Shown here: piece after piece, positions 27,678 through 32,787 of the stretch
How the letters are laid out: the number at the start of each line of letters is the position of its first letter
Position numbering within the stretch: position 1 is the first letter of the stretch
Source of the DNA: Candidatus Omnitrophota bacterium
GTDB lineage: Bacteria; Omnitrophota; Gorgyraeia; JABMRJ01
Length of the DNA stretch: 32,787 bases
Assembly (NCBI GenBank): GCA_016783555.1
Contig: JADHWH010000018.1
Location: 1 to 32,787 of the forward strand
Direction: 5' to 3'
Program-made: the position numbers and the translations under genes
Notes under the pieces: generated by a model
Told to the model about the DNA's origin: nothing
The model's database searches: none
What the model saw: only the letters and a program-made list of their open reading frames with translations

Positions 27678-28316
27678 ATGAAATACGGAGAATTTATCAA
27701 GTTAGTCAGGGATCTGCCTCTTATCGAGGTAGGGCTTATTCTTGCGGGTGTCCCCAATCCGGACCCCGTTAAGGTGCAGATCAGTCGTTGGGTAAAGGCG
27801 CATAAGCTTATCCAGCTGAGACGGGGCGTATACCTGCTTCCTAAGGCATTCCGTAAGATCGATGTTTATGAGCCATACTTAGCGGCGGTTTTAAAGAAAC
27901 CCTCATATATCAGTATTGAAAAGGCGCTTGAGTACCACGATATAATCCCTGAAGCAGTGAAAATTTTTACTTCGGTAACGACAAAAAGAGGAAGAAGATT
28001 TACGACAAAACTGGGTGTTTTTAATTATCAGCATATCAAAAATTCTCTTTTTTGGGGTTACGAAGCGGTTACAATTAACAAACAAACGGCCTTCTTTGCG
28101 ACACCGGAGAAAGCCCTTCTTGATCTTTTATACCTTAAGAGGATTAAGACGACTACCGCGTATCTGGATGAATTAAGACTGCAGAATCTTGAAAGGCTAA
28201 ACCTTAGGCGGCTTCTCGAATACGGCCGCCGGTTTAAAAAACCGGGTATGCGCCGCGCCGCAAGGCTTATCAAAAAATACGCCGAATACCAAAAAAAGGG
28301 CAGGAGGGTGGCATGA
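27678..28316 (+). CDS. AbiEi-family antitoxin (type IV toxin-antitoxin)
   Basis: The protein is 212 aa. An N-terminal winged-helix region (VQISRWVKAHKLIQLRRGVYLLPKAF) with the RRGVYLLP feature marks AbiEi antitoxins; the C-terminal domain contains TPEKALLDLLYL, also typical. AbiEi represses its own operon and counteracts AbiEii without direct binding in the type IV model. The gene overlaps the toxin gene by ATGA. A TATGAT at 27661-27666 could be the -10 box, with no good -35. Confidence 0.88.
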   Translation: MKYGEFIKLVRDLPLIEVGLILAGVPNPDPVKVQISRWVKAHKLIQLRRGVYLLPKAFRKIDVYEPYLAAVLKKPSYISIEKALEYHDIIPEAVKIFTSVTTKRGRRFTTKLGVFNYQHIKNSLFWGYEAVTINKQTAFFATPEKALLDLLYLKRIKTTTAYLDELRLQNLERLNLRRLLEYGRRFKKPGMRRAARLIKKYAEYQKKGRRVA

Positions 28317-29116
28317 AAGACTACGTCCTGGAGCTTGTTTCAAAACAGACCGGCTACAATGCGAAATTAAACATTATGCGTGAGTACCTGCAGGCTTACG
28401 CCTTAAGGATCCTGCATGACCAGGGCATCTTTCGCACAACCGCTTTTTTGGGAGGAACGGCCTTGCGTTTTTTGTATGATATGCCGCGCTTCTCGGAAGA
28501 CCTTGATTTTTCGGCTGCCGGGAAAAAAGGTGACGATTTTTCTTCGCTCATTAAAAAACTGAAAGATGATCTGGTTTCAGCCGGTTATAATGTCACCGCC
28601 ACTCATAAGAAAGAAAAGACCGTATTAAGTTCTTTTATCAGGTTTGAAGGCCTGATGTATGAAACTCGAATTTCACCTCATAAGAATCAGAAATTCTCTA
28701 TTAAGCTGGAAATCGATACCAACCCCCCGGCCGGGGCGGCGCTCAAGACCGTTGTCGTTAATAAGTATTTTCCGATTGCGTTTTTATCATATGATCTCGC
28801 ATCGCTTTTCGCCGGCAAGATTCACGCCCTTTTAAGCCGCAAATATACAAAAGGAAGGGATTTTTTCGATCTCGGCTGGTATCTTTCCAAATGGAAGGAT
28901 TTGGTTCCAAACTTGACGTTACTGGAGAATGCCTTGAAACAAACCGGCTGGAAAGGCGAAATCCCGACCAGAGACAATTGGAGAGATTTGCTCTATAAAA
29001 CAGTTAAAGATAAAGACTGGAAAAAGATAAAACAGGATGTAGAAAGTTTTCTCGAAAACCCGGCTGATCTTAATATTTTAACACAGGAGAACGTGCTAAA
29101 CCTGCTAAGACCTTGA
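28313..29116 (+). CDS. AbiEii/AbiGii-family nucleotidyltransferase toxin
   Basis: The protein is 267 aa. The nucleotidyltransferase core is FLGGTALRFLYDMPRFSEDLDFS (GG at residues 47-48, metal Asp63 and Asp65), followed by KLEIDTNPP with a likely third Asp and GRDFFDLGWYLSK. AbiEii proteins transfer nucleotides, some to tRNA 3' ends, and stop growth, for example during phage infection. All catalytic residues appear intact, so it should be active. The start overlaps the antitoxin gene. Confidence 0.9.
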   Translation: MKDYVLELVSKQTGYNAKLNIMREYLQAYALRILHDQGIFRTTAFLGGTALRFLYDMPRFSEDLDFSAAGKKGDDFSSLIKKLKDDLVSAGYNVTATHKKEKTVLSSFIRFEGLMYETRISPHKNQKFSIKLEIDTNPPAGAALKTVVVNKYFPIAFLSYDLASLFAGKIHALLSRKYTKGRDFFDLGWYLSKWKDLVPNLTLLENALKQTGWKGEIPTRDNWRDLLYKTVKDKDWKKIKQDVESFLENPADLNILTQENVLNLLRP

Positions 29117-29477: not shown

Positions 29478-30236
29478 TTACCTCTTTCTTCTCAAGTGGG
29501 TAGGAAGTATACGAAGTGACTCGCGGTATTTGGCAACCGTCCTTCTCTTTATAACAATCCCTTCGAGCTCTAATCTCTCCTTTACGGCATTATCGCTGTA
29601 GGGGGTTTTTTTGTCTTCTCTGTCCACAATCTCTCTTATCTTCTTCTTAACAGAGACCTTTGATATTATCTCGCCGTTCGTCTTCTTAACCGAATGGCTT
29701 AAGAGGGACTTTAAAGGCACTACCTTGTCATTGATCTGCACGTACTTGTTCGAGACGGTCCTTGATATCGTGGAAGGATGAAGCTTCAGGTTTTCCGCTA
29801 CGGTGTTTATGGTCAGGGAGTTGATATCCGATATATCGCCGTTTAAGGTGTGTTTTTGATGCTTGAGGACATAGTCGGCTACGCGGCACATGGTCTCTTC
29901 GCGCCGCTTCAGGCTGTCGATAAGCCCTTTTGCGTCGTTCATGTTATTCCTTAGGAATTCCTTTGCCTGGGGGTCTTTTATGACCTCAAGCTTATTTTCG
30001 TATGGGTTGTAAAGCCTAAGCTGGGGGACCCATTCTCTGTTTAGCTCAAGGTAGAGATTATCACCGCTTGTCTTTGCTATCAAATCGGGGACAACCCGCT
30101 CTGCGTTTTTCGAAAGGACGGTGCTGGCGGGTTTGGGGTTTAACTTCTTTATATTACCTATAGCCTCCTCGACCTCTTTTTTTATCTTTATTAAGGGCGC
30201 GCGATATCTTACTCGCGTCATCTTTCGCAAGCTCAT
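29478..30236 (-). CDS. rpoN: Sigma-54 RpoN, C-terminal part (out of frame)
   Basis: This ORF gives the core-binding and DNA-binding domains of sigma-54: KKLNPKPAS, then LYLELNREWVPQLRL, TVAENLKLHPSTISRTVSNKY (helix-turn-helix for the -12 element) and the RpoN box KRRTVAKYRE for the -24 element, ending in LPTHLRRKR. The first ~17 residues of the ORF are read in the wrong frame; true coding starts near the A7 run (30177-30183 on the plus strand). The N-terminal part is the ORF at 30154-30783. Removing one A joins them into one protein of about 450 aa, slightly below the usual size. See the frameshift entry. Confidence 0.88.
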   Translation of the reverse strand: MSLRKMTRVRYRAPLIKIKKEVEEAIGNIKKLNPKPASTVLSKNAERVVPDLIAKTSGDNLYLELNREWVPQLRLYNPYENKLEVIKDPQAKEFLRNNMNDAKGLIDSLKRREETMCRVADYVLKHQKHTLNGDISDINSLTINTVAENLKLHPSTISRTVSNKYVQINDKVVPLKSLLSHSVKKTNGEIISKVSVKKKIREIVDREDKKTPYSDNAVKERLELEGIVIKRRTVAKYRESLRILPTHLRRKR

Positions 30237-30783
30237 TTATGAAGCCGCTCGCGATTTCATATTCAAGCGACTCTTTCTTACCCTTTCTCTCAAGCTGCAG
30301 GAGCAGGCACTCCCTTATGTCCCGCGCGCCTATACCCGCGGGCTCCATCTTCTGTATAGTCTCTATTACTTCCTCTACCTCATCCGGCTCAACGGATAGG
30401 TCTTTTGCCGCTTCTTCGGTATCTACCTGCAGATAGCCGTTCGCGTCCATCTCATAGATCAGGTATTCCGCGATCTCAATCACCTTCTTTTCGAGGCCGA
30501 GCATCCTAAGCTGCGCTATGAAACTCAGCCTTGGGTCTTCATCACGCGTGAGATTATCACGGCTGTAGTCAAGAGAGGAGTCAGGGCCTGCCGTAGAGGC
30601 ATACTCTTTGCCGGATCTATCTTTGAACTGTTTTTTCAAGAATGGGTTTTTTTCCAGGAGAGAATCGATGTATTCGTTTAACTCCTTTGTAGACATGCCG
30701 AGAAACTGCATCGACTGTCTCATAAGAGGGGTAAGGGCGAGTCTTTGCTGCATTCGCTGATATACGGATAGCTTATATTTCAT
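30154..30783 (-). CDS. rpoN: Sigma-54 RpoN, N-terminal part (frameshifted)
   Basis: This part holds region I of sigma-54 (QRMQQRLALTPLMRQSMQFLGMSTKELNEYI), needed for activator response, then the acidic region and the first half of the core-binding domain (IQKMEPAGIGARDIRECLLLQL). After about residue 198 the frame drifts to RGRGGYR and stops. The ATG at 30783-30781 is preferred over the TTG two codons upstream. A promoter reading TTGGCT (30820-30815), 17 nt and TATACT (30797-30792) lies so close that the transcript may be nearly leaderless. The next gene upstream is divergent and has a sigma-54 promoter. Confidence 0.88.
   Translation of the reverse strand: MKYKLSVYQRMQQRLALTPLMRQSMQFLGMSTKELNEYIDSLLEKNPFLKKQFKDRSGKEYASTAGPDSSLDYSRDNLTRDEDPRLSFIAQLRMLGLEKKVIEIAEYLIYEMDANGYLQVDTEEAAKDLSVEPDEVEEVIETIQKMEPAGIGARDIRECLLLQLERKGKKESLEYEIASGFINELAKDDASKISRALNKDKKRGRGGYR
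30177..30183 (-). other. Frameshift site in rpoN (run of seven A)
   Basis: On the coding (minus) strand the run reads GAT-AAAAAAA-GAGG. In the N-terminal frame it gives D-K-K-R-G; skipping one A gives D-K-K-E-V-E-E-A-I-G, which runs straight into the C-terminal part. It is a one-base difference: either an assembly error in a homopolymer, a real mutation, or a slippery site. Confidence 0.85.
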
Positions 30784-30791
30784 GGACAATC

Positions 30792-30834: not shown

Positions 30835-30872
30835 TGTCTAACAGATGCACGAAATAGTAGACACGTGTCTAA
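30835..30872 (+). promoter_or_regulatory. Possible activator site: TAGACACGTGTCTA palindrome
   Basis: A perfect 14-bp palindrome (30858-30871) sits about 75 nt upstream of the sigma-54 -24 element, and the half-site TGTCTAA also occurs at 30835-30841. Distance and symmetry fit an enhancer-binding (NtrC-type) activator site; no such activator gene is in the window. Confidence 0.5.
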
Positions 30873-30945
30873 TCCGCTCGACATATCGCGGCTCTTTCGG
30901 ATGATTTCGGTGAGATTTGACATATCAATACAGAGATGTACAAAA

Positions 30946-30961
30946 TGGCACAAATATTGCT
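30946..30961 (+). promoter_or_regulatory. Sigma-54 promoter of the exopolysaccharide operon
   Basis: TGGCAC-N5-TTGCT matches the sigma-54 consensus TGGCAC-N5-TTGCW at every defined base (GG at 30947-30948, GC at 30959-30960). It lies 107 nt before the operon's first ATG and in the gap next to rpoN itself. Confidence 0.85.
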
Positions 30962-30972
30962 TATACTAGAAA

Positions 30973-31025
30973 ATGTATACAAGTTTATACATGTAACGGT
31001 CTGTCATGGACAAGAACTGACAGAC
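30973..31025 (+). promoter_or_regulatory. Two inverted repeats downstream of the sigma-54 promoter
   Basis: ATGTATA-N6-TATACAT (30973-30992) lies at the predicted transcript start, and GTCTGTCA-N11-TGACAGAC (30999-31025) follows. Both are perfect inverted repeats and are candidate operators, possibly for the MerR-type domain encoded by the following gene, or mRNA hairpins. Confidence 0.6.
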
Positions 31026-31067: not shown

Positions 31068-32072
31068 ATGAAAGGGAGATTAAGTATTACGGAAGTCGCT
31101 AAATCGCTTGGCATAACCCCAAGAACCATAATGAGATGGGAAAAATCAGGCAAGATTAAGAAGTCCAAGAGGGATTGGCGCGGCTGGAGGTTTTATTCAA
31201 GGGAGGATATAGAGGAGATAAGGAGATTTTTTGAGAGCGCTTATGACTATAATCAGTTTGACAAGTCGATAGTCATGAACGCCAAAGAGGTGCTTGGCGT
31301 ATTTCTTATAGCGGGGGCCTTATCTATATTTCTCTTTTCTCATTATGCCTACGCCGGAGCTGTAGAGCGCACAAACACAACCGGCATAAGAGAGACAAAG
31401 AAGACGGTGGATATCGTGTTGGAGGACCTTCCGGTTGTGGAGACCACCGCAGCGCCGCTTACAGAAGGCGTAAAGTATACGCTGGGGCCAGATGACCAGA
31501 TATCTATAGAGGTAAGAAGGCACCCGGAGTTCAGCGGGGATTATAAGATTAACGCGGAAGGGAAGATCGAGTATAAGTACATAGGCGATATAATCGTAAG
31601 CGGCATGACCAAGGATGAGCTTAAGGTCTGCCTTACAGAGATACTGTCAGAATATGTAATAGAGCCCGAGGTCAATGTCCTTATAACCGCCTATCTTAGC
31701 AAGGTGTTTTACGTGGTGGGTGAAGTAGGAAACCCGGGCAAGTTCTACATGAGGGGTGATACCGTAACGGTGCGCGAGGCGCTGGTTCAGTCGAGCCTGC
31801 CAACTCAGGCGGCGGCTATGCGGCGATGCAGGCTTATAACGCCCAATGAGACAGGCAGAAATAACTATGTAAAGGTCAATGTGTATGACCTGATGTATTA
31901 TGGCGATTTAGGCGAGAATATAGATATGAAACCGGGAGACGTTTTATACGTTCCGGCCACAGTCGTGGCAAAGGCTATACGTGTAATCTCCCCCGTAACC
32001 AACGCCTCGGCCCAGGTGGCCGGCACGGCGGCCGGCGCGGCGGTTAAGGCGGCGGCGATTACGGCATTATAA
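31068..32072 (+). CDS. MerR-type HTH / membrane segment / polysaccharide export fusion
   Basis: The protein is 334 aa in one frame, with GGAGAG before the ATG. Residues 5-54 form a MerR/HTH_17-type DNA-binding domain (ITEVAKSLGITPRTIMRWE, then WRGWRFYSREDIEEI). Residues 74-97 form a hydrophobic segment ending in AYA-GA, a plausible signal-peptidase site. Residues 135-215 form a poly-export (Wza-like) domain (YTLGPDDQISIEV, DYKINAEGKI), followed by an SLBB-like segment (YVVGEVGNPGKFYMRG, then MKPGDVLYVP). Such export domains act in the periplasm and outer membrane, so the predicted topology puts the HTH in the cytoplasm, as in ToxR-like membrane regulators. An internal ATG at residue 70 has no Shine-Dalgarno, so the fusion is probably made. 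The next gene is a Wzz-type protein. The function of the HTH is unknown. Confidence 0.82.
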   Translation: MKGRLSITEVAKSLGITPRTIMRWEKSGKIKKSKRDWRGWRFYSREDIEEIRRFFESAYDYNQFDKSIVMNAKEVLGVFLIAGALSIFLFSHYAYAGAVERTNTTGIRETKKTVDIVLEDLPVVETTAAPLTEGVKYTLGPDDQISIEVRRHPEFSGDYKINAEGKIEYKYIGDIIVSGMTKDELKVCLTEILSEYVIEPEVNVLITAYLSKVFYVVGEVGNPGKFYMRGDTVTVREALVQSSLPTQAAAMRRCRLITPNETGRNNYVKVNVYDLMYYGDLGENIDMKPGDVLYVPATVVAKAIRVISPVTNASAQVAGTAAGAAVKAAAITAL

Positions 32073-32089
32073 AACAAAGGAGAAAGAAT

Positions 32090-32787
32090 ATGGAAGGCGA
32101 AAACATGATATTTAAGAAACCCCTGGATTACCTCAATATACTATTCAGGAGAAAATGGCTTATTATCATACCGACTGTGATAGGCATAGTAATGGGCATC
32201 ATAGCGGTGAATGCCCTGCCTAAGATATACGAGTCCTCCACGCTCATACTGGTGGAAGAGGGCAGGGTGATAAACCCGCTTATACAGGGCCTCGCTGTAT
32301 CAACAAGCGTCGCCCAGAGGCTCGCTATATTGCGCGAGCAGATACTGGGCTGGGACAGGGTAAACCAGCTTATAAAGAAGCTCGGGCTTGCCAAAGATGT
32401 GAGGACTCAAGAGGAATTTGAGGGGTTGGTCAAAGAATTGAGGCGCAGCATAAGGGTAAAACTACGTGGACGCAATATAATAGGTATCTCTTATCAAGGC
32501 GGCGACCCTAGAGAGGCCATGAATATAGTAAAGACGATAACGGATATATTCATTCAGGAGAACATAAGACAGCAGACAATGGAGACGGAGAACGCCATCG
32601 ACTTCATAAATGACCAGTTGGACCTTTACAAGAAGAAGCTCAAGCAGACCGAGATCGCCGCTATGCAGGAGAATCTCGATAACCTGCTTCTTGATTCCAC
32701 GAATAAGCACCCCATGGTCATTCAGCTTAGAAAAGAGATAGAGGCGGAGCGGGCGGAGATAGACCAGGGCAACTATGAGGTAAGTGC
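32090..32787 (+). CDS. Wzz-type polysaccharide chain-length protein (partial)
   Basis: The gene runs off the right edge after 232 residues. It starts at ATG 32090 with AAGGAGA upstream. It has KPLDYLNILFRRKWLIIIP followed by a transmembrane helix (TVIGIVMGIIAV), the Wzz-domain segment YESSTLILVEEG, and then a long periplasmic coiled coil (Lys/Glu-rich helices from about residue 165). In exopolysaccharide machines it works with the poly-export protein upstream, either as a chain-length regulator or as a tyrosine-kinase partner; the missing C-terminus decides which. Confidence 0.87.
   Translation, partial: MEGENMIFKKPLDYLNILFRRKWLIIIPTVIGIVMGIIAVNALPKIYESSTLILVEEGRVINPLIQGLAVSTSVAQRLAILREQILGWDRVNQLIKKLGLAKDVRTQEEFEGLVKELRRSIRVKLRGRNIIGISYQGGDPREAMNIVKTITDIFIQENIRQQTMETENAIDFINDQLDLYKKKLKQTEIAAMQENLDNLLLDSTNKHPMVIQLRKEIEAERAEIDQGNYEVS

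Follow-up and report, generated by a model that had tools for sequence, protein, structure and literature searches.

XrtA/PEP-CTERM EPS loci with PrsK/PrsR (Haft 2006, PMC1569441) carry a set of export, chain-length, ATPase and tyrosine-kinase genes, a sigma-54 promoter and a PrsR-like activator. OPX proteins of Class 3 and Class 1 (Wza, WzaB) combine Poly_export and SLBB domains; their classification uses export-side domains only, and the word 'fusion' is absent from the text that presents it (PMC9603273). Among DNA-binding proteins, Streptomyces BldC is a small MerR-like winged HTH (wHTH) protein that lacks a dimerization coiled coil or effector domain. It binds 9-bp direct repeats at the promoters of a regulon as a head-to-tail multimer, with no need of a dimerization domain (PMC5859096), and RdfS takes up about 10 bp per molecule (PMC11963761).

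We analyzed a window of 32,787 nucleotides, which is contig C19 of a 1.77 Mb Omnitrophota MAG. The first gene of its XrtA/PEP-CTERM-type EPS operon, which has a sigma-54 promoter, encodes an OPX protein that, unlike those described above, begins with a DNA-binding domain (Table 1). Gene set, promoter class and PrsR-like activator are those of the Haft loci: export, chain-length, ATPase and tyrosine-kinase genes occur in order (TIGR03027, TIGR03007, TIGR03015 and TIGR03018), but all of these matches score under the equivalog cut-offs, a difference from the described loci. Beyond the end of the window, the operon resumes on contig C12 with a chain-length determinant, the XrtA ATPase, a tyrosine kinase, a flippase and glycosyltransferases. 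A full-length PrsR-like sigma-54 activator, again scoring under its equivalog cut-off, was found in 8/8 genomes examined; that of the window genome (G000) lies at C12:5221-6561 with the remaining operon genes. Since the term 'helix-turn-helix' does not appear in the text of Haft 2006 (PMC1569441), the HTH-OPX pair lies outside the gene set described there. Neither an HTH-OPX fusion nor an HTH gene in this operon was found in the literature searched, which leaves out most subscription journals as well as preprints. The parts (BldC-like wHTH, OPX protein, sigma-54 EPS operon) are all of known kinds; what is new, to the extent that this could be checked, is their combination, together with the cis-element described below.

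The fused frame is uninterrupted, and its ATG start stands close behind AAGGAG, a strong ribosome site. The initial annotation had read a MerR-type HTH, a membrane segment with an AYA-GA site and a Wza-type domain in this one frame, and Pfam, hydrophobicity and AlphaFold bear that reading out. The MerR_1, Poly_export and SLBB_2 matches each exceed the curated Pfam cut-offs. Residues 75-99 are hydrophobic and include no charged residue, and AYA-GA occupies residues 94-98. In the AlphaFold model (51-row alignment, mean pLDDT 87), the wHTH (pLDDT 90-97) and the OPX core (90-98) are confident, and the segment that joins them, residues 62-100, is of low confidence. Pfam returned no match in the ORF to Wza_C, the outer-membrane helix that Class 1 OPX proteins have and Class 3 proteins lack, although a C-terminal helix (residues 299-333) is predicted. 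Foldseek matched the OPX core to Wza structures and to the Class 3 OPX protein WzaB, with E values down to 3e-17 (9n9a, which is WzaB, and 7xfd), and matched the HTH to RacA, BldC and other MerR-type domains, RacA being among the closest folds (TM up to 0.77).

Table 1. Features in and around the fused ORF (window positions).
Feature	Position	Strand	Remarks
Divergent rpoN (sigma-54), frameshifted in this assembly	29478..30789	-	A7 run
Putative enhancer (UAS) palindrome TGTCTAATCCGCTCGACATA	30866..30885	+	
Sigma-54 (-24/-12) promoter TGGCACaaataTTGCT	30946..30961	+	Exact consensus
Inverted repeats named in the initial annotation	30973..31025		30973-30992 (7-nt arms), 30999-31025 (8-nt arms)
Putative operator: two 10-bp direct-repeat units GTAACGGTCT GTCATGGACA	30993..31012	+	Looser repeats to ~31032
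Fused ORF, 334 aa: BldC/MerR-type wHTH, hydrophobic segment, OPX (Wza-type) export protein	31068..32072	+	
Winged HTH, MerR_1, aa 6-53	31083..31226	+	Pfam E 6.6e-11
In-frame ATG, aa 70, at ancestral export-gene start position	31275..31277	+	SD eroded in window
Hydrophobic signal/anchor segment, aa 75-99	31290..31364	+	Putative signal peptidase I cut after A96 (AYA-GA)
Poly_export domain, aa 136-206	31473..31685	+	Pfam E 3.4e-18
SLBB_2 domain, aa 212-295	31701..31952	+	Pfam E 4.1e-8
C-terminal helix, aa 299-333, possibly Wza_C-like	31962..32066	+	AlphaFold prediction
Next operon gene: XrtA-type polysaccharide chain-length determinant, runs off contig	32090..32785	+	TIGR03007, E 1.4e-49

Searches of Omnitrophota genomes, all of them MAGs, yielded 55 loci for analysis: 13 fused ORFs, 33 split loci and 9 without an HTH. 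Because these loci are related by descent, counts over them are not independent events. The 13 fused ORFs represent 12 species (L034 and L045 belong to the same one), and L048 is cut inside the HTH by a contig end. With the fusion present in 11 species besides that of the window, an assembly accident is ruled out, as is a chance ORF. Nor do close homologs lack the HTH, an outcome that would have spoken against the initial annotation: they keep it, either fused or as an adjacent gene. In the 33 split loci, a small gene of its own encodes this HTH and directly precedes the OPX gene, which it overlaps or before which it ends by no more than ~70 nt (135 in one locus). These free homologs are ~60-75 aa long, ending soon after the HTH, and the OPX gene has its own start and signal peptide.

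The fusion is derived, and the ancestral state was two genes. In a maximum-likelihood tree of the OPX domain, 11 fusions form one clade (100/99), and L055 represents a second fusion that arose independently of it. In L006, L008, L043, L044 and L047, the old SD and ATG survive within the fused frame (e.g. ...TACGCTGAAGGAGGTGTAAAGGTTATG...), which shows that this fusion came from loss of the HTH stop codon; in these five species, the internal start could still yield a separate exporter. No internal start is usable in the window, L005, L007 or L034, nor was one seen in the partial L048. Wider sampling of the G249 and G020 families gave no further fusions, and one pattern scan of GTDB genomes for loci outside Omnitrophota gave only Omnitrophota-like ones. 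The record of one locus (L041, genome G068) is titled 'Planctomycetales bacterium'; both this locus and genome kinship place it with Omnitrophota, and it is probably mislabelled.

The HTH is the best-conserved part of the protein: within the main clade it is 70-81% identical to that of the window, as against 53-65% for the whole protein. A second possible objection, that the HTH might lack DNA-binding residues, did not hold up: the DNA-contact residues are invariant over 38 sequences, in all of which T20, R23, W24, E25, K29, R35, D36, W40 and R41 are found, and K26 is kept in most. Set against the BldC sequence, T20, R23, W24, K26 and R41 match BldC T27, R30, W31, K33 and the wing residue R47, for which contact roles have been described (PMC5859096). 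The HTH model superimposes on BldC (6ama/6amk) with an rmsd of 1.8-1.9 A. Its score with the NCBIfam BldC model (NF033787) is 24.1 bits against a cut-off of 77, and we therefore term it BldC-like rather than a member of the BldC family. What the two share is a small MerR-like wHTH with neither dimerization coiled coil nor effector domain (in the free form), the key contact residues, the fold, and short direct repeats at the promoter, which here are putative binding sites. They differ in the repeat unit, which is 10 bp here (consensus GTCaTAGACA) and 9 bp for BldC (AATTxxxxC), in their targets, one dedicated putative operator per genome here as opposed to a regulon, and in the fusion of the HTH to a secreted exporter.

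In most loci, a -24/-12 element lies ~75-190 nt upstream of the HTH gene, and a palindrome, TGTnTA-N6-TnAACA, lies 60-180 nt upstream of that promoter and is probably the enhancer site of the PrsR-like activator. Direct repeats upstream of HTH genes gave 147 lag-10 matches, compared with 11 ± 5 in dinucleotide shuffles, with a second peak at lag 20. De novo motif search returned GTCATAGACA-TTCATGGACA, which is one 10-bp unit twice (log-likelihood 268 versus 67-74 for shuffled sequences). An array of such units occurs within 560 nt at 39/42 HTH loci but at 0/9 OPX loci without an HTH. A strict 19-base array pattern had almost no hits in 117 genomes because the repeat is degenerate. With a looser pattern, 28 whole genomes gave 27 hits, 12 at the HTH locus and 15 elsewhere; the latter figure is about that of a backwards control (14), and the array is therefore locus-specific. 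Its usual position is just downstream of the promoter, before the start codon. In the clade of L009/L049-L053, and in L016, it abuts or overlaps the enhancer palindrome instead, and both positions suit repression, as does the existence of a putative enhancer separate from the repeats. That same conserved palindrome led us to reject the array as an activator site.

The window itself holds a weak example of the array, with about two units, one of them poor, overlapping perfect inverted repeats. These inverted repeats, which the initial annotation had named for a binding test, do exist, but the conserved element is the 10-bp direct repeat, and the likely operator is formed by the direct repeats, not by the inverted repeats as such. 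Fused loci average 2.1 array units and split loci 2.7, a difference that is no more than suggestive (p = 0.07). Rfam gave no match in the window that would point to a riboswitch or other known RNA in the leader. Very probably, the operon on which the HTH acts is its own.

How might such a protein work? On balance we think it probable, if not strongly so, that the HTH is a BldC-like autoregulator, fused through a signal sequence to the exporter and membrane-tethered, with signal peptidase freeing the exporter. It would be dedicated to the sigma-54-dependent EPS operon and most likely a repressor of it. The ancestral free HTH, of ~60-75 residues, would bind the tandem 10-bp repeats of the promoter from which it is itself expressed, most likely in the form of a head-to-tail multimer. 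It would repress either because it blocks the region of the transcript start or because it crowds the activator site. We propose that loss of the stop codon turned the HTH into the cytoplasmic n-region of the OPX signal sequence. Sec targeting would then send the OPX domain into the periplasm and keep the HTH at the cytoplasmic face of the inner membrane, the topology expected from the sequence. Signal peptidase would probably cut after A96 and so free the exporter; each exporter made would leave one membrane-tethered HTH behind, and autoregulation would be tied one-to-one to exporter synthesis and translocation. The more specific proposal, that a cleavable signal peptide has the regulator as its n-region and that the cell counts export by the membrane-bound regulator which each translocated exporter leaves behind, is tentative, and we think it less likely than not. 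After the signal peptidase cut alone, the HTH would remain tethered to the inner membrane; its release into the cytoplasm would need a further cut. Only about 15-20 aa link the HTH to the membrane, and so short a linker may hinder DNA binding while the HTH is tethered.

Cleavage is plausible only: [AVST]-x-A occurs where the hydrophobic core ends, or beyond it, in 11/12 fusions, and shuffling of residues reaches this -3/-1 motif frequency often enough (p = 0.17) that it is not significant. L046 has no good signal peptidase site. Among the 12 fused proteins, no column between F54 and L118 other than A96 is invariant, and the invariance of A96 is partly a matter of gap placement by the aligner (L044). 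A precedent exists in iRhom2, a protein with a long cytoplasmic N-terminus that is cut by the signal peptidase complex and the N-terminal fragment of which alters transcription (PMC7618786). However, iRhom2 is eukaryotic and unrelated, and its cleavage is proven, whereas here we infer cleavage from sequence. The consequences of the two outcomes diverge: a cut would restore the ancestral free exporter and leave the HTH membrane-bound, and an uncut protein would be a ToxR-like one-component sensor.

The uncut form is the alternative that survives best, although we consider it unlikely. The OPX domain would stay linked to the inner membrane, and its periplasmic assembly state would control the HTH directly, which was the first idea in the initial annotation. 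The predicted layout, with a cytoplasmic N-terminal HTH, a single membrane segment and a periplasmic domain, is that of ToxR/CadC-type regulators. The HTH of ToxR is an OmpR-type wHTH, whereas the one here is of the MerR/BldC type, the periplasmic part is an export protein, and there is a signal peptidase-like site after the membrane segment. Wza-type OPX proteins form rings, and such rings could drive multimerization of the HTH on the repeat array. Against a permanent anchor stand the A-x-A ends that follow the hydrophobic segment in 11/12 fusions, and the split relatives, in which this exporter is secreted through an ordinary signal peptide; staying anchored would therefore alter the ancestral location of the exporter.

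Alternatively, loss of the stop codon could have produced the fusion as an almost neutral side effect: regulation and export would run unchanged, an internal start would supply the exporter, and the HTH would be a tolerated extension. The internal ATG with a strong SD that is kept in five fused species would fit, and the independent fusion in L055 shows how easily fusing can happen. We nonetheless find this improbable: the window, L005, L007 and L034 cannot use such a start, nor is one seen in the L048 fragment, the HTH remains strongly conserved and the putative operator is kept despite the missing starts, and the fusion persists throughout a well-supported clade of 11. The poorest of the alternatives, and a quite improbable one, has the array bound by another protein such as the sigma-54 activator, with the HTH acting as a RacA-like chromosome-membrane tether or a RodZ-like scaffold; the closeness of the RacA fold and the contact of array and enhancer in one clade are in its favor, but the separate enhancer-like palindrome is conserved, the locus-specific array follows the HTH gene, and 10-bp direct repeats fit multimers of BldC-like or Xis-like wHTH proteins (PMC5859096, PMC11963761).

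Under the favored reading, that of a tethered BldC-like autoregulator, cleavage of the fused form by signal peptidase, if true, would be a new coupling of protein export to transcription. The loci form a natural series, from a free regulator beside its exporter, to a fusion with an internal start, to a fusion without one, in which a regulator becomes physically tied to a secreted protein. A further prediction of the reading is that EPS operons throughout this little-known phylum have a cis-element and an autoregulator dedicated to them.

Several further features of the window genome and its relatives were recorded. The rpoN gene is split into two frames at the A7 run (30177-30183), the cause being an assembly error or else a genuine slippage/phase-variation site; in the relatives L066 and L065 it is intact and divergent. 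One end of contig C12 (L003/L063), from the same MAG, overlaps positions 31962-32787 of the window with strain-level differences. Near the EPS operon, positions 27678-29116 likely encode an AbiEi/AbiEii-type toxin-antitoxin pair (AbiEii E 3.5e-29; AbiEi_4 under cut-off). The second OPX gene of the same genome (L002 1444-2010, G000 contig C8) has an ordinary signal peptide and no HTH, and another small free MerR/BldC-like HTH gene, a paralog (L004 1474-1668, G000 contig C11), lies directly upstream of an SMC-like gene.
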